Shown here piece after piece: positions 1 through 14,511 of a stretch of DNA of 15,640 nucleotides. The position numbers and the translations under genes were made by a program. The stretch comes from Rodentolepis nana (taxonomy: Eukaryota > Platyhelminthes > Cestoda > Cyclophyllidea > Hymenolepididae), in assembly GCA_900617975.1 (NCBI GenBank), contig UZAE01013108.1, positions 1 to 15,640 of the forward strand, given 5' to 3'. The notes beneath the pieces were generated by a model. That model saw only the letters and a list, made by a program, of their open reading frames with translations. It was not told where the DNA came from and did no database searches. Position 1 is the stretch's first letter. Every line of letters begins with the position of its first letter.

Positions 1-474
1 GGCGTTAAAGTCTCCTACTACTATAGTTTTGTGTGAGATGTTCAGAAAGTCAAAGTTGGGTCAATTCTGGGGTGGATTATAGACCGCATATACCTTGAAG
101 TGGTTTTGACATTTCCAAACATTTAATCTGATTATTTCACATATGTCTTGTGTCGAGCCCATACTCTTGATTAGTTCGTACTGTGAGGTGAGGCCTTCTT
201 TTACTCCAGTTAGAATTCCATTTGAAACTTGCCGGTATTTAGATAGAAGGTACATGGTGTAACCTGGGAATCGGTAGTACTTTAGTTTGTCATCCGAAAT
301 GTTTGCTTCCATAATTGTGAAAATGTCTACATCATAGGTTTGTAGGATTTTCTGTACTTGGATCTTTTTGTCCAGTGACATCCCCACAGCATTCCACTGG
401 AGGATCTGAAGACGTTGCGGTTCACCCTGACGAGGGCGATTTCTCTTATAGCCTTTTTTCAAGTTATTAATCAT
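1..474 (-). pseudogene. LINE apurinic-type endonuclease ORF with an in-frame stop
   Basis: This is the N-terminal part of a retrotransposon polyprotein whose endonuclease nicks target DNA to prime reverse transcription. After about 21 basic residues comes LQILQWNAVG (residues 22-31) with the motif-I Asn28, then IMEANI with Glu57, then YNPP around residue 132. Residue 137 is followed by a TGA stop at 63-61, but the same frame continues to the window edge and ends in IVVGDFNA, the Asp/Asn motif of this endonuclease family. All visible catalytic motifs are therefore in one frame, broken by a single nonsense codon, so the copy is most likely dead. The ATG at 474 is chosen because it is the first after the ribozyme and the endonuclease follows at once. 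The reverse transcriptase would lie beyond position 1. Confidence 0.85.
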
Positions 475-505
475 GATAAATCGAAGTCAAATCAAATGCC
501 GAGTG

Positions 506-577
506 ATAGACTTTTTTGCCGTAAGAAAATACGTTGTCCAGGGTGCACCGCGTGAAGGTAATTCTATCGCGCACCTC
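506..577 (-). ncRNA. HDV-like self-cleaving ribozyme, 5' end of the LINE
   Basis: Read 5' to 3' on the minus strand: P1 GAGGTGC (577-571) pairs with GCACCCT, with one mismatch at the second position and a G-U at the cleavage-site pair. P2 ATAGAATT pairs with AAGTCTAT (513-506) with one mismatch. P3 is ACC/GGT with loop TTCACGC. The P1 strand is followed by GGACAAC, a P4 hairpin CGTA/TACG, and GCAAAA carrying the putative catalytic C (position 518). The order and nesting are those of the hepatitis-delta ribozyme family. Such ribozymes are known at the 5' ends of R2, RTE and L1Tc retrotransposons, where they release the element 5' end from a longer transcript. The mismatches in P1 and P2 and the G to A change in the GGGCAAC strand suggest weakened activity. 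Confidence 0.8.
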
Positions 578-937
578 TCTTTATGCTATAATGAATGTTA
601 GGTAGCGTATAGCATTTGGTTAAATTATTTTAAAATTAATTTATTGAATTAGTTACAAGAAGATTAATATCACAGGTCTACAAAAAATCCGACGGTTTAT
701 TAATTCAAAGAACTTAAAAAGCCAATTAATGTTTTCATTATTTTTATTTTGCAAAAATGTCTTTTTTTGTTTAGCTAAGTGAAATTTTTCTTATGTTTGC
801 CCTTCAGTGTATGGCAATTTTACAACATTTAGAATCATTATTTGACGTCAAGGGATTCAATATGTTAGTTTTATATTTTCGCTTACTAATCCTATATTTT
901 TATATTTATCAGTATTCTAAAACATTAGCATCCGAAA
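578..937. other. AT-rich upstream region of the syntenin gene
   Basis: This stretch between the LINE 5' end and the syntenin start codon must hold the promoter and 5' leader of the gene. No convincing TATA box or repeat was identified. An AG at 911-912, after a T-rich run, could be a 3' splice acceptor for a 5'-leader intron or for spliced-leader addition; that is inference only. Confidence 0.4.
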
Positions 938-1906
938 ATGCCTGCTCAATCAAGTCTTGAAGGAGTCATTGCAGCCAAGGAAAATGCTAAAAATAATTCT
1001 AATGATTCACAAAAATCCAATACGTTTTTGGGTCTTGATTGGAATAACCTCAAAAACAATGAAAATGGTGATAAAGTTCATTTTCCTATGCCTGAAAATG
1101 GTGCTACCCTTTTTAACACTATGGGAATAGCTATACCAGGTAATAAAACGCCCGAACCCAGAGATCCCATCCCAGTAAATCAGGAGGTTCGCGAATTGAT
1201 TATTAAAAGCAAGTGCAATTTTGGAATGACTCTTCGAAATTTTGAAAATGGAATATTTGTTTCGCATGTGAGGGCAGGCACCCCTGCCGCTAAAGTTGGA
1301 CTTCGATTTGGTGATCAAATCTTAAGAATTGGTGATAAGAATGTTGCTGGAATGAAGGGAAAGGATGCTTATGAATATGCGTTAAGTTTGAAATTACGTG
1401 CAGTTTCATTTATAATTCGTGACAGGTACTTAATTCTTTGCCCATTAAGCTTTCAGTTTCTGTTTTTTACTGATTATTACATTTCGATATGCTTTCACTT
1501 AGACCACTGGAACGCGTTGTTGATCTGACGAGAAATGATCAGGGACAAGTGGGCATGTTTATTGTTAAAGGAGGAGTCGTCGAAATTCTTAATGAAAGCA
1601 GTGCAGAAAATAATGGAGTCATCAAAAGAAGTCAAATTTGTGAAATTAATGGAATAAACGTCATTGGCTTTCCTGATGAAAAAATTGCTGAAGTGATCAA
1701 GGCTGCTGAAAATGACTTAATTCGAGTCACGATCATTCCTCAAGATTTCTACCGGCATCTCACAAAGCGGTTAGTTTTATCCAATGCAGCTTCTTATTAG
1801 TAGTCTTCTTTTCCGGTAATGTAACTTTTATTTGTTTTGTAATAGATTGACAAAAGATGTGCTGACAACTTTTAATCGACTGGCTCCGGTACCTCTAGAT
1901 CCATAA
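938..1906 (+). CDS. SDCBP: Syntenin (tandem PDZ scaffold protein), complete, 3 exons
   Basis: Exons 938-1425, 1503-1769 and 1846-1906 join into 271 codons plus TAA. Syntenin is a cytoplasmic and membrane-associated adaptor whose two PDZ domains bind C-termini of syndecans and other receptors, with roles in trafficking and exosome formation. PDZ1 is about residues 84-162 (binding loop FGMTL near 95-99, then NGIFVSHV and GLRFGDQIL); PDZ2 is about 165-242 (loop VGMFI near 179-183, then ICEINGINVIG). The joined sequence IIRDRPLERV across intron 1 matches the inter-PDZ linker of human syntenin (IRDRPFERT), which fixes the splice. The C-terminal tail IKR-type segment is also conserved in position. 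The start is supported by SLEG near residue 6, matching the SLED of vertebrate syntenin, followed by FNTMGIAI matching the SQYMGLSL block. Human syntenin has 298 residues. The N-terminus lacks recognisable LYPxL motifs. The divergent C-terminus ends LDP. Confidence 0.93.
1426..1502 (+). other. Syntenin intron 1 (77 bp)
   Basis: The donor GACAG/GTACTT and acceptor TTCACTTAG/ACC give a GT..AG intron in phase 2, splitting an Arg codon (AG/A). Reading through it without splicing would replace PDZ2 with a hydrophobic tail ending at 1528. Confidence 0.9.
1770..1845 (+). other. Syntenin intron 2 (76 bp)
   Basis: The donor AAGCG/GTTAGT and acceptor TTTTGTAATAG/ATTG make a GT..AG intron in phase 2, again splitting an Arg codon (CG/A). 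Splicing restores LTKDVLTTFNRLAPVPLDP as the C-terminal tail. Unspliced, the frame ends at 1800. Confidence 0.85.
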
Positions 1907-2923: not shown

Positions 2924-2931
2924 TAGAAGTA

Positions 2932-3215
2932 TTTATTTATATCAAATGGCAGGCATTTTGGTAGTTATCATTAGCCCTTTTGTTGACTTTAGGCTTCACA
3001 GAGGGGAAGGAACATCAAAGTGAAAAAAGTCGAGAGTGGGGGGGGGGGGGAACAGAAAAGTGTTTCAAAGATGTAAAAGAGACAGACACAAAGATAGAAA
3101 AAAGGTGAGGTGAGTACTGTGAAAGTTGTGGAATATGACATACAGTGAGGTGATGGTAGTTTGAAGTCAGAAGTCAACTGCCGGTTTATAGACTTTTTTG
3201 CCGTATGAGTATACA
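2932..3215 (-). mobile_element. Short ribozyme-bearing retroelement, copy A, 5'-truncated
   Basis: The minus-strand element ends 3' in a short A/T tandem tail (TTTATTTATATC read on plus at 2932-2943). It is flanked by an 8-bp direct repeat TAGAAGTA at 2924-2931 and 3216-3223. Its 5' end stops inside the ribozyme P4 hairpin, so only the P4 3' side, the GGCAAAAAAG strand and P2' remain (3214-3188). 5' truncation with a target-site duplication is the hallmark of target-primed reverse transcription. A 13-nt C tract (minus strand, 3050-3038) lies in the body. The apparent ORF across it on the minus strand is element sequence, not a host gene. Confidence 0.85.
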
Positions 3216-3223
3216 TAGAAGTA

Positions 3224-3444
3224 GAAAGGTCGATGCACATGGTCCAAGAGTCAGGTTCTTTACCGTGGGTGGCACTCAATTACCAGATCATTTTTTAATG
3301 TGTAGAAGCTGACTTCAGCCGTAATAATGGCTATTGTGCAACCATAAAGCTGTCGTATTAATAACAAAGCGTAAAATCAATATGAAGCAATAAGTGAAGA
3401 AGTAATTAATAACATTCAGTTTGACCAAAGAATGAATTTTATTG
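3224..3444. other. Spacer between retroelement copies A and B
   Basis: About 220 bp of AT-rich DNA separates two minus-strand copies of the same element. Nothing else was recognised in it. Confidence 0.4.
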
Positions 3445-3455
3445 TTATAAGATAT

Positions 3456-3769
3456 TTATTTATTTATATCAAATAGCAGGCGTTTTGATGGTTATCATTA
3501 GCCCTTTAGTTGACTTCAGGCTTCACAGAGGGAAGTGAACAACAAAGTGAAAAAGTCTAGATTGAGGAAGGGGGAGTGTTTCAAAGACGAAGGTAGAAAT
3601 GGTAGAAAAAAGGTGAGGTGAGTACTGTAGAAGTAGTCGAATATGACATACAGTGGGGTCATGGTAAGTTGAAGTCAGAAGTCAAATTCCGATTTATAGA
3701 CTTTTTTTGCCGTATGAGTATGCGTTGCCCAGGGTGCACCACGTGGAGGTAAGTCTATCGCACAACCCC
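3456..3769 (-). mobile_element. Short ribozyme-bearing retroelement, copy B, full length
   Basis: This full-length minus-strand copy is flanked by a perfect 11-bp target-site duplication TTATAAGATAT at 3445-3455 and 3773-3783. It begins with the HDV-like ribozyme, continues through a leader homologous to the LINE leader, a pyrimidine-rich body, and ends GCCTGCTATTTGATATAAAT plus a short TAAA-type tail. An ATG at 3662-3660, aligned with the LINE start codon, opens a 48-codon frame ending at 3516; other copies have lost this frame through indels. No tRNA-like A and B boxes were seen, so it is not a typical tRNA-derived SINE. Confidence 0.88.
3696..3769 (-). ncRNA. HDV-like ribozyme of copy B
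   Basis: P2 (ATAGACTT, 3758-3751, with AAGTCTAT, 3703-3696) is perfect, P3 is ACC/GGT, L3 is TCCACGT, and the strand GGGCAAC (3730-3724) is intact. L3 and GGGCAAC closely resemble the HDV genomic ribozyme (TCCTCGC and GGGCAAC). The P1 strand GGGGTTG carries an extra T relative to the other copies, so P1 needs a bulge. P4 CGCAT/ATACG has one internal mismatch. The putative catalytic C is at 3709. Confidence 0.8.
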
Positions 3770-3783
3770 TTTTTATAAGATAT

Positions 3784-5994: not shown

Positions 5995-6274
5995 GTTAAT
6001 GGTAGTTGCCATAAGCGCTTTAGTTGACTTTAGTTTTCACAGAGGGGAGGAGGAACATCAAAGTCACGAAAAGTCGACAGGAGGGGGTAGGAATAGAAGA
6101 GTGACTCAAAGAAACAGACACAAAGGTAGCGAAAAGGGTGAGATGAGGTGAGTACTGTGAAAGCGGTGGAATGTGCCATGGTAGTTTGAAGTCAAAAGTC
6201 AATTGACGGTTTATAGACTTTGTGAATACGCTGCCCAGGGTGCATCACGTGTTGATAAGTCTATCGCACATCCC
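5995..6274 (-). mobile_element. Short ribozyme-bearing retroelement, copy C, no 3' tail
   Basis: This minus-strand copy begins precisely at GGGATGT (6274) next to GACTGGAGAAC (6275-6285). A similar GACTGAAGAGC at 5984-5994 (9 of 11 matching) is the likely other half of a target-site duplication. The body matches copies A, B, D and E but is shorter, with internal deletions, and the TAAA tail is missing at the 3' end. The divergence suggests an older insertion. It lies on the same strand as, and about 0.6 kb downstream of, the TBC gene poly(A) signal. Confidence 0.8.
6213..6274 (-). ncRNA. Decayed HDV-like ribozyme of copy C
   Basis: P1 GGGATGT/GCACCCT and P2 ATAGACTT/AAGTCTAT are recognisable. 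P3 is ATC/GAT instead of ACC/GGT, a compensatory double change that keeps pairing. The 3' half of P4 and the GGC strand with the catalytic C are deleted (GTATTCAC runs directly into AAAGTCTAT), and L3 has lost its CC. It should be inactive. Confidence 0.7.
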
Positions 6275-6285
6275 GACTGGAGAAC

Positions 6286-7006: not shown

Positions 7007-7369
7007 CTATGGGTCTCCAGAGGATTCTGCCATAGTGTGGGCATTCGTCATCAAATTAGTGGCGTCTTCGCCAACTTCCACTGCGCTTATCGATTTGTCA
7101 TTAGCGTTGTCGTTGAGGGGAGGGCTATTTGAAGAGGGAAAAGCAGATTCCAGGGAGAAATTGCAGGTTGCTAGGAGTCCTTCCTCGTCAACACTACTTC
7201 GATGGCGACCATCGCCAGGAGGACCGGATGAGGGTGGAGGAGCGAAGCCGAGGAAAACGGCTACTTCATTGGGAAGACAGTCGCGAACTTCCGAAAGCTG
7301 ATTGAAGATGCCTTGAGCACGACTCAGAACATTGTTTAGATTGATCATCTCACTCAGGTTGTTGATGTA
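7007..7369 (-). CDS. TBC1D15: TBC gene terminal exon and C-terminal tail
   Basis: 363 nt: 120 codons plus TAG, followed by two more in-frame TAG codons. The acceptor is ATGCATAG/TACATC. The first ~42 residues (YINNLSEM to AVFLGF) finish the TBC domain. The remaining ~78 are rich in Ser, Pro, Asp and Glu, with no domain, as in the human tail. The 5' part of this exon and the adjoining intron are duplicated in inverse orientation near 12150. Confidence 0.87.
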   Translation of the reverse strand, partial: YINNLSEMINLNNVLSRAQGIFNQLSEVRDCLPNEVAVFLGFAPPPSSGPPGDGRHRSSVDEEGLLATCNFSLESAFPSSNSPPLNDNANDKSISAVEVGEDATNLMTNAHTMAESSGDP

Positions 7370-10300
7370 CTATGCATAAAGAAGGTGCAGAAAAAAAATG
7401 ACATTTGGTGAGAACACCCCAACACACTTGGAGATAAGCGACTTCATCAGACTCAGGCATTAGCCCAACAACCCATTATTGTCGGCACCATATTTAAAGA
7501 CCACTCATTAACTCCACTTCCATAGTACCACACAATTAGCGCTTCCTGCTGCTAAACAACGATGCCTAGGATAGATAACGCCTATCCATGGATCACTAAA
7601 CTGCCTGCCCTAATCTACGCTAATTCAGAAGTCGGAAGAATGGTGTGACTAGTGGATTCACAAATTAAATACTTCCAGAGATCTCCACAAGTGTAGTTAT
7701 CAATGTGGCATTTAATGTGAAAAAAAAGAATCATTGCAAAGAGTGGACATAGTTTTCAGTTAGTCTCAAAGGGGTTAATCTAGAACTCATTCACAAATGG
7801 ACATATATACGAGTAGAGTGGCTTTTCATTACCTTGGACGAAAGCACCCAAAAGTACATACTCTATCAACAATATAACTTATGTGCAGTTCGAAATTATA
7901 AAGCAAATGCACAGAGGATAGAATCTTTTTTGTTCTAGCTTGGGGGATTTGAATGACAGCCAAAATTGGACCTAAAATAGATCCAGTGTCATATCTTGAA
8001 CCCAATCAGTGCAGATCAACCAAAAGATAAAAAGGGAGAACTAGGCAATTAGGAATAAGGAACAAGGCATGCATTTCAAGGACATCATCGGGATACAAAT
8101 CCGAAAGTCTCTCTCATTGACACGAAAAAAATTATTTCTAGACTTAATTAGCATTCATTTTGCTCCCTTGTAAAAATCAAATCTACCAAATGACAATTTC
8201 ACTTCCTATTCATCACAAGTGGTGGCAAAGCCCCTGTAGAACAGGACTAGAAATTGCCAAAGATGGTTGGTCAAAGATTTTCAATTGTTACAAGTGACAA
8301 TTGCCCATTCATTCAGGCTGCATGCATTAACAATCGTATTTTTTTTAAGAAATAGAATCAACAGACGCATGGAAATAAAAAATAAGAAAATCAATCAAAT
8401 CTCAAACATTTGTTTCCCATTCTATCCTCTGTTTGAAAAGTCGATTCAAAACAGATTTACTACCCATTCATTCTTAAATTATAAGACGGAAAGTTAGTTG
8501 TGACTGGGATAGAGCTCTAACACCCCCCCCCCACTCCCCATCGCACCGGTGACAGTCAATTCAATTTCAAAGCCATTGGGCAACTCTAATCCAGTTACTC
8601 TTAACGACAATTATTATTAATAAATCTAATGATAGATGAAAAAAACAATTGTGTGTGCCTACCTGCAGAATTTGACTCATATCCTGGCAGGTTCGCATGA
8701 TAGAATCCGCCTCAGCATCAAAAATGGCCACTGCAATGAGCAGGTGGAAATTCTTGGGAGCAACACCACTGAAGAGGGTCTAAAAGAGAGGGCGAAACAA
8801 AAGAAAACTGAAAAGAGGTGAATACACACACGTACAATGCCTACGTAACACCTCAATTTACTAAATAGATAAATATGATTGCTTTTAGTAAATGAGTGCC
8901 AGATTCATAAGACAAGCAACAGTAATCTTCTAAGAACTCAAGTGAGGCATAGTGCGGTAAAATTTATCTAACGTCGGATTTGATGGACACACTGACAAGC
9001 TTCAAACCGATCGTTTGCGTCCATGATTCATTTTTGCTTTTATAATGGCTAGTGAGATAAGTCCGTTAGGTATACTACAAAAATACAGTGTGCTTAGAGC
9101 GCTCGTCTAATGAATAAGTAGTTATGAGACCTTAACTCATCGATGAACATTCGGTGATGTGGATGACCAACCACACCGGCACAATCTCGCAAACGTTCGG
9201 AATGAGAGGAAGTGACTTTCTACCTTCCGATTGCCATAAGAGACATGGAAAGCAACTAAACGTTACTACAACACGGTGACAAGAAAGAGGTTGTGGAAAA
9301 GACGAGTTTATCTATAGGATCAAAACACATATTTCTACGAGAGAGACAATCGAGCTGTCTGCTCTGCTCTGCTCATTGAAGCCACTTCGATTACAAGGGA
9401 ATAGCTTCATGCCAAAAAAGCACCGGCACTCACCTCCCAAAGTATCTTGATATCATCGTAGGAGAACTCTCGCTTGAAGATAATGAGGAACCACTTGAAG
9501 CAAAAGCTCATCGACGTTGCCTCCTTTTCGCCTGAAGATGGTTCAACAAACAAACAAAAATATGAATAAACACATAATTTTGGAAGTATATGCGATAGGG
9601 AAAAAAAGTTGATTACTTACGTAAAAAGTGAGCAAAGTTTGGCATTAGGATTTCAATTAGTTTGAAGAGATTGTGGAATTGACTGTAGAGACTTGACGGT
9701 CCATCAGAAAAGTTGTCAGCCTGAACAGGGAAGCAAATGAGCACACATGAGTTGGAATAATGCTAATCAGCATTTATTTTCATTCAGGTGTATATTTCAC
9801 AAAGGGGGGTGTGCGATAGACTTACCTCCACGTGGTGTATCCTGGGCAACGTATTCTCATACGGCAAGAAAAGTCTATTAATCGGCAGTTGACTTCTCAC
9901 TTCAAACTATATTGACCTGGCTGTATGTCATATTCGACTACTTTCACAGTACTCACCTCACCTTTTTTCTACCTTTGTGTCTGCCTCTTTAACATCTTTT
10001 AAACACCCTTCTGTTCCCCCCCCCCTCTCGACTTTTGCCCTTTGATGTTTCTTTCCCTCTGTGAAGCCCAAAGTCAGCTAAAGTGCTATTGATAACTATC
10101 AAAACGCCTGCCATTTGATATAAGCATTTCAGAAAGGATAATGATGACAAATGTCCTTACAAATAAAACGCATAGCAAATTCAATGCAATAGAATGGGGC
10201 AGAGCAGAATTACAGACTTAGTACATTCCCCAAAATTGTCGGAATTGCACTCTACAAGGGAGGGAGAGAGCGCGAAACGAATGAGAGGGCCAAAACCCAT

Positions 10301-13300
10301 CACGAATCCGCTTCTAACGATTAATATACGGAAGAAGGGTCCTAGCGAGAATAATTAAAGTCACACTGAAAAGACCCGCTTTTAGACGACTAACATGCCA
10401 ATCCTTTAATAAAAAGCATGATTAAACAGCTGTTTGTACGGTAGAAAACAGTACTCAGTGACTATTTAAACACTCGGGAGATACTCCGTATCTCCATCTT
10501 ATTGAATCTATTAAATCACTTTGAAAATGTCCTAACAGCATTACCCAATCAGTTACCGTGATCGTAGACGAACTTAGCCTCCCATTTCCCAAAACACAAT
10601 AAGCAAGTTAGATATCCGAAAGGAATTTTTAATTAACCCAATCGAGAGTAAATACGGCTCATTTTACATCTTGCTGATAAGGGTGCGCGATAGACTAACC
10701 TCCACGTGGTGCACCCTGGGTAACGTATACTCACATGGCAAAAAAGTCTATTATTCGGCAGTTGACTTCTGACTTCAAACCATAATGGCCCGACTGCATG
10801 TTATATCCTACCACTTTCACAGTACTCACCTCACCCTTTTTTCTACCCTTGTGTCTGTCTCTTTCACATCCGTGAACCACTCTTCTGTTCCCCTCCCCTC
10901 GACTTTTTGTGACTTTGATGTTCTTCCGCCCCTCTATGAAGGCCAAAGTCAACTAAAGGGCTAATGATAACTATCATAAGGCCTGTCATTTGATATAAAT
11001 AAATAAATATCTTGCTAATTAACCCGTAGGTGGTGAGTTACTTATCACATTGCTACTGAATTATTGAAAGTAAGCAAGGCTAAGCTAATAAACCTCGACA
11101 AATGGTAAACCAATTAGAGTAACATTGGAAAACAGTGGACCAATGAGAGCCTTGAAATCCGGATACATTCAACCACACGTCCCACACTGGAGAGATAGAA
11201 ATAGCATTATGACGAGTGGCCATTCATTCAGAGCTTAATGGCCTTTAATTAGACAACGTTTTATCTGCAGGCTATACTTTAGAAGACATTAAAGCGGCAC
11301 TCCACACAGTCCCTTCACTTGAGATTTTGGTACATTTTAAGCCGATAGTTTGATTTCAAAATATCTACGAACAGCTAAAAGGTCAAATATAACTACACCA
11401 TGGAGTAAGCACTATCGATCCTGTAAAACTCAGGAAAGAAATTCAACTGTTCATTCCTCGAAATAAGCAACCTCCCTTGTGAACAAGCATCGTGTTTTAC
11501 GTTCGCACAGCACTAGGCTGGGGTGGCCAAGTTCACATCTAACAGCCCCTAAATTAAGATGTTCAAAGCACACGTCAAGTTAGAAAATTGGAAGATAGAT
11601 GAGTATGATCCAATAAGGGACTGAGTTTCTGGGTCTCCATTCGACTTAGCTTTAACAGATCGAAGTAAATGCAGTGTGTCTGTGTTACTTAAATCCTCCA
11701 CTAAAAAGAGGATTAAAGGTTCAACCACTACTTTGCCAGAATGTTACGGTAATCCACTAACAGTGGGAGGATGGTGGGGTGAGTGGTATTAAACGAGAGG
11801 GCCATCAAAGAGCAATAAAAGAATGACTAGTGGCTCCAATTGTCGAAAGCACACTAAGCCTCCACACAAGATGAATTTTGTACTTATTAAAAGGTAAAAG
11901 AAATAATGATGCCGACCCCCGCCCCCCCAACCTCCCCCCGCCCCCACAAAACTGTGCTCCAGTTAGCAGTAGGAAGCGCTAATCGTGGGGGCACTATGGA
12001 AGTGGAGTTAGAAGAATGGTCGTCAGGTTTAGCACTGGCAACAATGAGTTGTTGGACTATTCATGTCTGTTGGGCAAATGTCTGAGTCTGATTAAACTTG
12101 AATATTTTTTACGAAATTTCATTCTTTTGTACTTTCTTTCAGTCTGCATAGTGCATCAGCAGCCTGAGTGAGATTATTAAACTGCGTCATTCTCAAGGTA
12201 CATGGATTTGTGACGCCCCAATGATCATCAACCTTCATCATTTGATAACCCATGTGCATGGGTAAAGATTTGGTTCCAATCTTAGTGATGCAACCGCCTG
12301 TATCTAATGATGAATCCTCTCTGTCAAGTGCAAGCAGATGAGTCTAGCAACAGAGCATTCTAGTCAAGCTGAACTCGAATGCAGTGCTGACCTCAGTAAT
12401 AATGGAGTTCCTACCTTCTCAGTCATTGCTTCAAATCAAAATGCCTCGTAAAATGAGAAATCGTTAGGCAAGAAGGCAAGCTGAAAACTGAAACCGAGAC
12501 AAAGAGGAATGAGTCATTGAATGCTGCCAACAACTTCAGTAGAATCCAAAGGATGAATTTACATTAAAACTGCCCTCAAATGACCTAGATTTTTTATGAT
12601 TGGAACCCGCGGAGTGTCTGTCATCTGGCAAGAGGGTGATCGGGTGGTAGAAACCAACTGACTAGGTTATAAGAGCTCGTTGGATTGAGCTGAGCCTTGG
12701 CTATTGAGTTTAACTACAATTAGAGACATCAATCGGAGACCCGATCGAGAGGTGAAAGTTGGCATCATTTGTTGCTGAGGGAAATTTTACTACAACACCA
12801 ACCCCAATGGTTGACCTCCCAACTCCCTCACCCCCCCCCCCCAGGTCATAACCCCGATCGATCATAGCGCATGCATTGGGCTCTACCGGGAAAAACATCA
12901 ATCGCTCAACAAGAACTACAAAAGTCTACCCGGTTAATGGGCAGAGTTAAATCAAATTATGAGACCCTTCTAGGTGGAAGGATAAAAGCATCTTGCCCCA
13001 AATTACGGAGCCAAATGCACAACCAAGGACGGATTGTGGCTCTAGCATTTTGAGCAAAACAATGTCACGAGAGTGCAATCTCCTGACTTATCGATTTTCG
13101 CAAATTGAACGGAATTGTTTACTTAGCAAGCACATTGTTCTTTTTTCAGAACATCAAGAACTTAGACATTAGAATTCTAAAAATAGCGTCTTTTTCACAA
13201 AAATCTAGATTATCAAATAAAGTTTCATGACAATTATACACTAACCCACAAGCATTATCTATTACTCTATGCATTTATAACGTACTTTTAAACAATTTGG

Positions 13301-14511
13301 ACATTTGACGACTCTCTCTATTAAAATGCAGAAAGTGCAAAATAAGAAGAGTGCAGAACCAACTCGGTTTAAATTTTAGTTCTTTGCTGTATTAAAAATT
13401 TTTTATTTGATGAAAGTGTCATAAGGAAATAAGTAAGTAAGGAGGAGTAATAACAGGGGGTTGTAAGCTTTAGAGCCTCCAAAATAGCCAGAAAAGTAAT
13501 AAATCCAATTTACAAAACTGTGACCGCTAATGCTACTAAAAGTGTAAATAGTACTACTAACAAATTTCAAGTTAAAGGGGGAAGTTGAAGATGCCAAATG
13601 GAAAATGCTCCAACGTGATAAACACAAATAAGTTCAAGGTCAAAGAGTTAGATATTCCCTCTATTTTGCGGTAAAATTCCAGATGAGAAAGTGACATTTC
13701 GCGTCATCAATAGCCCCATAAAAGTATTTCGACAGACCAGCTTCTAACCACCGACGACTCTATTCATCACCCCAGCCCGTAAAAGATGTTTGTGAATAGA
13801 TGCGATTCTGGCAAGTCTGAATCACACACGAAGTGACCTAGAATACACGCGTTCTTTAGTCGCCGACTTCAAGTGATAATTGTGGATTCGGAGGCTACAA
13901 ATAGGCGTCCAGCAATGATTTTGATTCGTGCGATCTTCTCTCATCGATCAATAACAGTCACACGCAAAAAAATTATTGCCCAAGTATGCACCCCATGGAG
14001 AATAAATCGAGGGGGTCCTAGAACGCACAAAAATAGGACACAGGGGGGGGGGGTCCAATATGAATCTTAGTAAACAAAGAAGACGGGATCTATCATCACA
14101 TGATCGTCTATTTTGCAAATTAGCATTTAGTAGGATGATGTGAGATGATAAAACTTCAAAAAAAGGATGCCGCGTGGAATAGCAGACCTAATAACTCTCA
14201 ATTAAGGAAGATATTTTTCCAAAACCATAAAAATCCATCATGTGGAAATACGATCAGTCTTAAAATGGAAGTAAAGTTGATCCCGACTGCGCGTTCGAAA
14301 ATGCATTCGCTAATAAAATCTCAAGAATAAGCACCATCATCATCATCATCGCGTGGAGACTAATGTTGGGGCTAATAAAATGCAAAGAGCAAGAGAAGGT
14401 AGAAACGTACAATGAGTTCAAGAAGTCCAGCAAAACACCAGAAAGCATCCTCTTCACCCTCGATAATTGTCATGATAACGGCGAGAAGATCGTTCATACC
14501 CTGGAAGTAGC
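7007..14511 (-). CDS. TBC1D15: TBC1D15/TBC1D17-type Rab GTPase-activating protein, 3' five exons (partial)
   Basis: Exons on the minus strand are 14511-14411, 9720-9621, 9531-9434, 8779-8663 and 7369-7007. Phases agree at every junction and all introns are GT..AG. TBC proteins stimulate GTP hydrolysis by Rab GTPases using an Arg finger and a Gln finger; TBC1D15/17 act on Rab7-like GTPases in late-endosome and mitochondrial quality-control traffic. The visible protein (256 residues) starts at the Gln finger, GYFQGMND, then EDAFWCFAG, FCFKWFLIIFKREFSYDD, NFHLLIAVAIFDAEADSIM and YINNLSEMINLNNVLSRAQ, the same blocks in the same order as human TBC1D15, with near-equal spacing. The Arg-finger region and N-terminal regulatory part are missing and must lie upstream. 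The C-terminus is a Ser/Pro-rich, acidic tail. TBC1D17 or an invertebrate single ancestor of both are equally good names. Confidence 0.88.
7370..8662 (-). other. TBC gene intron (1293 bp)
   Basis: The part next to the terminal exon (to 7556) is one arm of an inverted duplication. A C10 tract at 8523-8532 reads as G10 in the transcript. No other feature was recognised; the short open frames are chance. Confidence 0.75.
8663..8779 (-). CDS. TBC1D15: TBC gene exon with the NFHLLIAVAI block
   Basis: 117 nt, 39 codons, phase 0 at both ends, acceptor CTCTTTTAG/ACC and donor CTGCAG/GTAGGC. It encodes the NFHLLIAVAIFDAEADSIM helix near the C-terminal end of the TBC domain. Confidence 0.88.
8780..9433 (-). 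other. TBC gene intron (654 bp)
   Basis: Nothing conserved was recognised apart from a short CTGCT/CTCTG-type tandem run at about 9358-9374. Confidence 0.7.
9434..9531 (-). CDS. TBC1D15: TBC gene exon with the CFKWFLIIFKREF block
   Basis: 98 nt between acceptor ATCTTCAG/GCG and donor TGGGAG/GTGAGT: two bases of the split Arg codon plus 32 codons. CFKWFLIIFKREFSYDDIK is the most diagnostic stretch, matching CFRWLLIRFKREFSFLDIL in human TBC1D15. Confidence 0.9.
9621..9720 (-). CDS. TBC1D15: TBC gene exon, helical middle of the TBC domain
   Basis: 100 nt between acceptor CCCTGTTCAG/GCTG and donor TTTTTAC/GTAAGT: 33 codons plus the first base of an Arg codon. It includes LFKLIEILMPNFAHFL, matching the LSTLLRLLD block of human TBC1D15. 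Confidence 0.87.
9806..9878 (+). ncRNA. HDV-like ribozyme of copy D, core intact
   Basis: P1 GGGGTGT (9806-9812) pairs with GTATCCT (9837-9843), using several G-U pairs and beginning with the G-U pair typical of HDV. P2 ATAGACTT (9816-9823) pairs perfectly with AAGTCTAT (9871-9878). P3 is ACC/GGT (9824-9826, 9834-9836), and L3 TCCACGT holds CC that can form P1.1 with the GG of GGGCAAC (9844-9850). P4 CGTAT/ATACG (9850-9854, 9859-9863) is perfect, followed by GCAAG with the putative catalytic C at 9865. Cleavage would occur just 5' of 9806. Confidence 0.87.
9806..10125 (+). mobile_element. Short ribozyme-bearing retroelement, copy D, full length
   Basis: This plus-strand copy is flanked by ATTTCACAAAGG (9794-9805) and ATTTCAGAAAGG (10126-10137), an 11-of-12 target-site duplication. 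It therefore starts exactly at G9806, the predicted first nucleotide of the ribozyme product. The 3' end is GCCTGCCATTTGATATAA with almost no tail. A C10 tract (10016-10025) lies in the pyrimidine-rich body. It sits 85 bp from the 3' splice site of a TBC exon, in the orientation opposite to that gene. Confidence 0.9.
10138..10667. other. Intron DNA between copies D and E, nothing recognised
   Basis: Read on both strands; no exon, RNA gene or repeat was identified. Confidence 0.45.
10681..10751 (+). ncRNA. HDV-like ribozyme of copy E
   Basis: P1 GGGTGC (10681-10686) pairs perfectly with GCACCC (10711-10716), and A10680 could add a pair with T10717. P2 ATAGACT (10690-10696) with AGTCTAT (10745-10751) is perfect, P3 is ACC/GGT and L3 is TCCACGT. 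The strand GGGTAAC differs by one C to T change from GGGCAAC. P4 has decayed (CGTAT opposite ACATG). The catalytic C would be 10739. Confidence 0.82.
10681..11008 (+). mobile_element. Short ribozyme-bearing retroelement, copy E, full length
   Basis: This plus-strand copy runs from GGGTGCGCG at 10681 to ATAAATAAATAA at about 11008. ATCTTGCT at 10668-10675 recurs at 11009-11016, and the following bases are partly similar, so the target-site duplication may originally have been about 13 bp. It has the longest TAAA tail of the set. The minus-strand frame across 10731-10952 is element sequence, not a gene. Confidence 0.88.
11017..11915. other. Intron DNA, nothing recognised
   Basis: No gene, repeat or RNA was identified on either strand between copy E and the G-quadruplex motif. 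Confidence 0.45.
11916..11945 (-). other. G-quadruplex motif on the TBC sense strand
   Basis: On plus there are C runs of 5, 7, 6 and 5 (11916-11920, 11922-11928, 11934-11939, 11941-11945), giving four G runs of at least five on the minus strand with loops of 1, about 5 and 1 nt. This satisfies the usual four-run rule with ease. It would be present in the TBC pre-mRNA. Confidence 0.75.
11962..12198 (+). repeat. Inverted partial duplicate of the TBC terminal exon and its intron edge
   Basis: The reverse complement of this segment matches 7311-7556 in blocks that look about 80-88 percent identical: ATCTCACTCAGG with GATG.ACTATGCA, AATCAGACTCAG with GCCCAACA, and AACTCCACTTCCATAGT with ATTAGCGCTTCCT.CTGCTAA. 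A 20-nt insertion lies in this copy. Intron sequence is included, so it arose by DNA duplication, not by retrocopying of a spliced mRNA. Confidence 0.75.
12152..12262 (+). pseudogene. Decayed duplicate of the TBC terminal exon
   Basis: After an AG at 12150-12151 the plus strand reads CISSLSEIIKL, against YINNLSEMINL in the real exon. Then there is a deletion of about 10 nt (ending in TCTCAAGG, matching CTCAAGG), loss of similarity, and a stop codon near 12263-12265. It lies on the opposite strand to the functional gene and has no recognisable upstream exons, so it is non-functional. Confidence 0.6.
12199..14042. other. Remainder of the large TBC intron, nothing recognised
   Basis: The sequence holds a C12 tract at 12831-12842 and several short chance frames. 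A GGTTCGA-type tRNA B box was looked for and not found. Confidence 0.45.
14043..14053 (+). repeat. G11 homopolymer
   Basis: A run of eleven G residues on plus (C11 in the TBC transcript), one of five G or C tracts of ten or more in this otherwise AT-rich window. Confidence 0.8.
14333..14350 (+). repeat. CAT trinucleotide microsatellite
   Basis: About six tandem CAT units within the TBC intron. Confidence 0.85.
14411..14511 (-). CDS. TBC1D15: TBC gene exon with the Gln finger
   Basis: 101 nt: two bases completing a split codon, then 33 codons. The acceptor is CATTTTTAG/GCTAC and the donor is CTCATT/GTACGT. It encodes YFQGMNDLLAVI, containing the catalytic Gln of the YxQ motif, and EDAFWCF. 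A preceding exon must end in phase 1, presumably supplying the G of the conserved Gly. Confidence 0.88.

Follow-up and report, generated by a model that had tools for sequence, protein, structure and literature searches.

The closest precedents for the element described here are the L1Tc/NARTc/SIDER elements of trypanosomatids and the SIDEs of Drosophila R2. According to parts of PMC4035085, the L1Tc/ingi LINEs, which encode endonuclease, reverse transcriptase (RT), and RNase H, and the short elements NARTc, RIME, and SIDER carry an HDV-like ribozyme (L1TcRz) in their first ~77 nt, the Pr77 hallmark. Drosophila R2 SIDEs, as sections of PMC3414825 describe them, combine a 5' ribozyme with the 3' end of the autonomous element, have a precise 5' end, and show 5' template jumps. 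The HDV-like ribozymes of RTE, R4, and L1-type LINEs are described in part of PMC3774820 as cleaving at the element 5' junction. Hammerhead retrozymes, in the portion of PMC7761336 used here, are likewise short, non-autonomous, and equipped with a self-cleaving ribozyme, whose class differs from that of the tapeworm element.

We analyzed a stretch of 15,640 nt of the tapeworm Rodentolepis nana (contig UZAE01013108.1), referred to below as the window. We consider it highly probable that an HDV-like ribozyme, self-cleaving by prediction, heads a non-autonomous retroelement of ~320 nt, and that the same ribozyme heads an autonomous LINE that moves this short element. As in the L1Tc/ingi system, so far as the parts of that literature cited above describe it, the LINE and its short partner are both ribozyme-headed and the LINE domain order is alike. 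SIDER2 signatures occur as two in tandem, and some tapeworm copies have repeated cores. The tapeworm system differs in its flatworm host and in the middle of the short element (~100–265), which is unmatched in eight LINE loci; the likeness drawn here is one of layout. Like R2 and the R2 SIDEs, the tapeworm element has a 5' ribozyme, the 3' end of a LINE, and a precise 5' end; R2, however, is site-specific in 28S genes, whereas the flanks of the tapeworm element are diverse.

A predicted delta fold at 9806–9878

An earlier note on this DNA, made from the sequence alone, had proposed an HDV-like self-cleaving ribozyme here and had listed P1, P2, P3, L3, the strand GGGCAAC, P4, and the catalytic C. 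The sequence and the pair counts show every one of these in place.

9806..9878, + strand: predicted HDV-like ribozyme; all pairs form; sole match to the strict descriptor in the window; RF02682 33.1 bits, E 0.0061, below gathering

P1 pairs 9806–9812 with 9837–9843 (7/7 pairs, G·U first), P2 pairs 9816–9823 with 9871–9878 (8/8), P3 pairs 9824–9826 with 9834–9836 (3/3), and P4 pairs 9850–9854 with 9859–9863 (5/5). The L3 loop, TCCACGT, lies at 9827–9833, and GGGCAAC at 9844–9850 has identical letters in the RF00094 consensus. A P1.1 helix is possible (2/2 pairs, C9828 and C9829 with G9845 and G9844), and the five helices are arranged in double-pseudoknot order. C9865, position C60 of the element, occupies the place of the catalytic C in J4/2, and cleavage is predicted 5' of G9806, position G1. 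Four of the seven P1 pairs in this copy are G·U wobbles, and the family therefore includes stronger copies. The minimum-energy fold of 9806–9879 drawn without pseudoknots is not the delta fold (−13.0 kcal/mol, versus −6.9 kcal/mol for P1, P3, and P4 alone), a comparison that decides little because the folding program cannot draw P2 and P1.1.

The rarity of the fold was assessed with two descriptors. The loose one, with no P1 mismatch, matched the window only at 9806 and gave 14 matches in 400 dinucleotide shuffles, a rate of 0.035 per window; when one P1 mismatch was allowed, it matched the window at 9804, 9806, and 9808 (+) and at 3768 (−), and the matches in the shuffles rose to 113. The strict descriptor matched the window only at 9806 and gave no match in 1192 shuffles; it was written post hoc, when the site had already been seen, and thus measures rarity and is no blind test.

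The covariance-model search that the note had suggested returned a significant score. RF02682 matched four copies in the window (32.2–33.5 bits, E 0.005–0.01), all below its gathering threshold of 44 bits, and RF00094 matched three of those four (E 0.27–9.5), also below gathering. In 12 of 12 further loci, chosen among those fetched, RF02682 matched at 30.2–40.9 bits, with all 18 rows below gathering. Across the genome assembly (107,105,815 bases in 4701 contigs), a first look gave 25,212 candidates, of which 61 were scored with RF02682; 37 of these 61 places lay above gathering, with a best score of 54.5 bits (E 1.1e-7). Ten of the 61 were fetched and rescored at 46.4–54.5 bits, and all ten head copies of this short element. 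RF02682 matched none of 14 control genomes. The RF00094 scan across the genome gave no match; RF00094 is silent even where RF02682 matches, and its silence therefore decides nothing. The matches to both models are full length. RF02682 is named for a bacterium, and its P1 register lies two bases off ours for most copies. With an independent curated model and, as described below, a predicted cleavage site at the insertion boundary both in agreement, the structural tests support 9806–9878 as an HDV-like ribozyme, with self-cleavage as a prediction.

Copies of the short element and their boundaries

The ribozyme makes up the first ~73 nt of the short element, which occurs in the window as follows.

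9806..10125, + strand: short non-autonomous element with ribozyme; ends GCCATTTGATATAAG; delimited from repeats; aligns with 39 other places scored in the genome
9794..9805: 5' target-site duplication of the 9806 copy (ATTTCACAAAGG); 12 nt, one mismatch versus 10126–10137
10126..10137: 3' target-site duplication of the 9806 copy (ATTTCAGAAAGG); directly after the element tail
10680..11008, + strand: second short copy; ribozyme 10680–10751; duplication 10668–10678 / 11009–11019 (11 nt with a single mismatch, two bases before 10680)
3456..3769, − strand: third full-length short copy; ribozyme 3768–3696; duplication 3770–3783 / 3442–3455 (14 nt, one mismatch)
5999..6275, − strand: damaged short copy, read from the sequence; P4 region and catalytic C gone
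2930..3214, − strand: 5'-truncated short copy, read from the sequence; starts within the ribozyme

Against the five local copies counted earlier, we find three full-length short copies (9806 and 10680 on the + strand, 3768 on the − strand), one damaged (~6275, −), and one 5'-truncated (3214, −), along with the autonomous element, whose 5' end lies at 577 (−).

The start of the element is sharply defined. With a query that began five bases upstream of G9806, the alignment started at exactly 9806 in 30 of the 39 other places, one to five bases earlier in eight, and later in one. In a core-aligned set of 106 copies, which includes tandem-core loci without the usual start, the commonest base reached 31–58% at the 22 positions before −1 and 41% at −1. 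Inside the element, G accounted for 77, 82, 82, and 85% at positions +1 to +4, T for 89% at +5, and G for 91% at +6. Upstream, T at position −10 was present in 62 of the 106 copies, the peak among upstream positions, perhaps reflecting an insertion-site preference of the endonuclease.

Target-site duplications place the boundary at the same base. Loci found by searches favoring full-length copies, taken with their flanks, gave 44 copies with a recognized start and tail; 21 had exact duplications of 8–17 nt, against 0 of 196 mismatched control pairs, and in the other 23 no exact duplication of at least 8 nt was found. The duplication ended zero (13 copies), one (4), or two (4) bases before G1. 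According to the relevant part of PMC3414825, the 5' junctions of R2 in Drosophila ambigua likewise carry between zero and two extra bases. Since duplications and alignments both have their boundary at G1, the first inserted base is the predicted cleavage site. The earlier description of a short dispersed retroelement fits these dispersed, duplication-flanked copies.

The partner LINE

A further ribozyme on the − strand of the window stands directly upstream of a LINE reading frame.

506..577, − strand: ribozyme heading the autonomous LINE; RF02682 33.5 bits, E 0.005; P1 6/7, P2 7/8, P4 4/5
61..486, − strand: N-terminal endonuclease frame of the LINE, identified from protein relatives; 141 aa up to the stop; first ATG 474–472

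This frame has 45 protein relatives, 39 from Rodentolepis nana and five from Hymenolepis microstoma, many with PF14529/PF03372; the 61–486 (−) piece alone scored 11.9 bits with Pfam, below the cut-off. A genome search with the frame gave 1019 candidates, 150 of which were scored, and all 150 match. In 29 of 30 fetched loci, the ribozyme lies directly upstream of the frame on the same strand. The matched core starts with GGGG in 21 of the 29 LINE loci, and the core of L056 is doubled. In L052, the ribozyme is inverted relative to the endonuclease frame (741–812 and 1923–1994), as after 5' inversion or rearrangement.

Single-locus LINE frames matched PF14529 at 63 and 56.9 bits and the start of RVT_1 at 29.3 bits, slightly below the cut-off of 29.6. 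RNase_H was matched in the frames of L064, L067, and L068 at 63.5, 53, and 30.4 bits (cut-off 25.8). An RT-side search gave 263 relatives; among the 120 listed, the named non-tapeworm ones were mostly spider proteins labeled transposon BS or X-element. Frames that span N gaps were set aside, namely one of 781 aa in L061 and long ones in L063 and L065. The ATAA-repeat tail had pointed to RTE, but this assignment was dropped on the RNase H match, which distinguishes the tapeworm LINE from RTE; RTE-clade LINEs have endonuclease and RT and are not known to carry RNase H.

Positions 1 to 82–98 of the short element match the LINE in eight of eight loci (in pieces in L068). The 3' end matches in seven of the eight, from position 266 in six and from 275 in L062, with no match in L066. 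The middle (about 100–265) has no match to the eight LINE bodies at E 1e-3, some of these loci containing N gaps, and because of this the element falls outside the strict definition of a SIDE; a pure SIDE, produced by internal deletion of the LINE, was accordingly set aside as a candidate. Target-site duplications and both ends in common with the LINE were found, as looked for in a LINE-dependent short element, and on these sequence grounds the LINE very probably moves it.

Abundance and tandem cores

Allowing at most three mismatches, we count 17,022 occurrences of a 26-base core in the 107-Mb assembly (8537 forward and 8485 reverse), or one ribozyme core per ~6.3 kb with LINE heads and doubled cores counted; R2 SIDEs, by comparison, are called rare in the part of PMC3414825 that treats them. 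The core pattern read backwards has no occurrence in the genome, and a 21-base core had none in IMG/VR.

Some loci (L056 and L069–L075) have mosaic 5' leaders, in which short-element-type and LINE-type cores stand in series at 40- or ~81-nt spacing and which often restart at CGATAGAC. These leaders resemble the products of template jumps made at the 5' end to other element RNAs. L071 and L074 have one mosaic leader in common and different flanks; L069 and L070 have flanks in common as well and may be one duplicated region.

Conservation among copies

The 106 copies comprised 101 distinct sequences, of which 18 were left out of the alignment (15 from L070–L075, fetched for their tandem cores, two from L052, and one from L056), leaving 83. 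The catalytic position C60 is kept in 79 of these 83 copies and absent from four, and the G·U first pair is kept in 70 and absent from 13; 29 of the 83 failed a lenient competence rule. A replaces the catalytic C in L050:1411, L053:1407, L041:1410, and L068:5602. Three of these are LINE heads, and they would serve as natural inactive controls.

Covariation above shuffles was not found in these 83 near-identical copies. The share of pair cells that hold, 93.9%, equaled the shuffle mean; the three pairs with any two-sided change were reached by 163 of 500 shuffles; and the covariation score was ordinary, with 200 of 500 shuffles as high. This is what one young family of near-identical, neutrally decaying copies would show. 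The modeled fold is then carried by the covariance-model score and the boundary, without covariation support.

Alternative explanations

The ~80 nt at the start of the element might be maintained chiefly for DNA promoter activity, or for a dual role like that of trypanosome Pr77, with the delta fold secondary or disused. Pr77 is described, in parts of PMC4035085, as both internal promoter and ribozyme, and conservation among the 83 copies comes without a structural signal beyond shuffles. A transcription start site at G1 could yield the same boundary, and the boundary alone therefore does not decide between promoter and ribozyme. A promoter, however, need satisfy neither every delta helix nor an RNA model at 54.5 bits, and we regard this explanation as improbable. 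Still far less probable is a chance likeness to the delta fold multiplied by the abundance of the repeat: the loose descriptor does find such likenesses in shuffled windows at the rate of 0.035 given above, and the copies are non-independent and show no covariation above shuffles, but the strict descriptor found none in its 1192 shuffles, RF02682 reached E 1.1e-7 genome-wide, and chance would have had to put the predicted cleavage site on the insertion boundary.

The series of partial or whole ribozyme cores in some copies also brings to mind a retrozyme-like element, spread via small circular RNAs excised by paired ribozymes. Close-spaced cores, however, were seen in seven contigs among the 100 places listed, the window copies examined carry a single 5' ribozyme, and retrozymes as described in the cited part of PMC7761336 carry hammerheads, so that we give this explanation very little credence. 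An HDV-like ribozyme heading a LINE-mobilized short element is the reading that we retain.

Proposed mechanism and significance

By analogy with R2 (parts of PMC3774820 and PMC3414825) and L1Tc (parts of PMC4035085), the ribozyme-headed element probably propagates as follows. It would be transcribed inside a longer transcript, where the ribozyme would fold and cut directly 5' of G1, leaving an RNA that starts at the first base of the element, as the fold and the boundary suggest. The LINE protein, acting in trans, would recognize the common 3' end with its ATAA-repeat tail. Target-primed reverse transcription of this RNA, with duplication of the target, would follow, a step consistent with the 3' end common to both elements and with the duplications found at target sites. 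Any full-length insertion would retain the ribozyme, and the cycle could be repeated wherever the new copy is transcribed.

At one mismatch or less, the 9806 copy contains neither an A box nor a B box; at two mismatches, four stretches resemble an A box and none a B box. More tentatively, and with considerable doubt on our part, the element may represent a class of SINE in which a self-cleaving ribozyme at the head replaces the Pol III promoter and which is present in thousands of copies in a compact animal genome. Such a SINE could be released from any sense read-through host transcript and could do without its own promoter, which may explain how a short element can spread although no Pol III promoter is recognizable in it. 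If so, many introns of the worm would contain, in sense orientation, sites capable of cutting host pre-mRNA, and the system allows a test of whether ribozyme insertions damage host transcripts.

In the open-access literature, a scope outside which most subscription papers lie, we found no publication combining ribozyme and retrotransposon with Hymenolepis or cestodes, and the titles found there for HDV-like ribozyme, SINE, and LINE concern trypanosomatids. The host phylum is new as far as that literature goes, and so are the abundance of the element and its unrelated middle; the underlying principle is already known. The pairing of a ribozyme-headed LINE with a likewise ribozyme-headed short element, known from trypanosomatids and R2, thereby gains a flatworm representative whose copy number is very high, with thousands of natural variants from which to learn which delta-type cores cut.

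Other features of the window

A host gene with two PDZ-domain exons lies at 929–1900 (+), with PF00595 at 35.3 bits in the first exon; we take it to be syntenin-like. A RabGAP-TBC domain piece was matched at 9407–9535 (−) at 17.9 bits, below the cut-off. This piece, perhaps with 7007–7369, 8663–8779, and 14410–14511 (−), probably belongs to a multi-exon minus-strand gene, in which case the 9806 and 10680 copies would be antisense in its intron. Finally, 7338–7383 and 12138–12183 form a 46-nt inverted repeat, 80% complementary, that has no relation to the short element.
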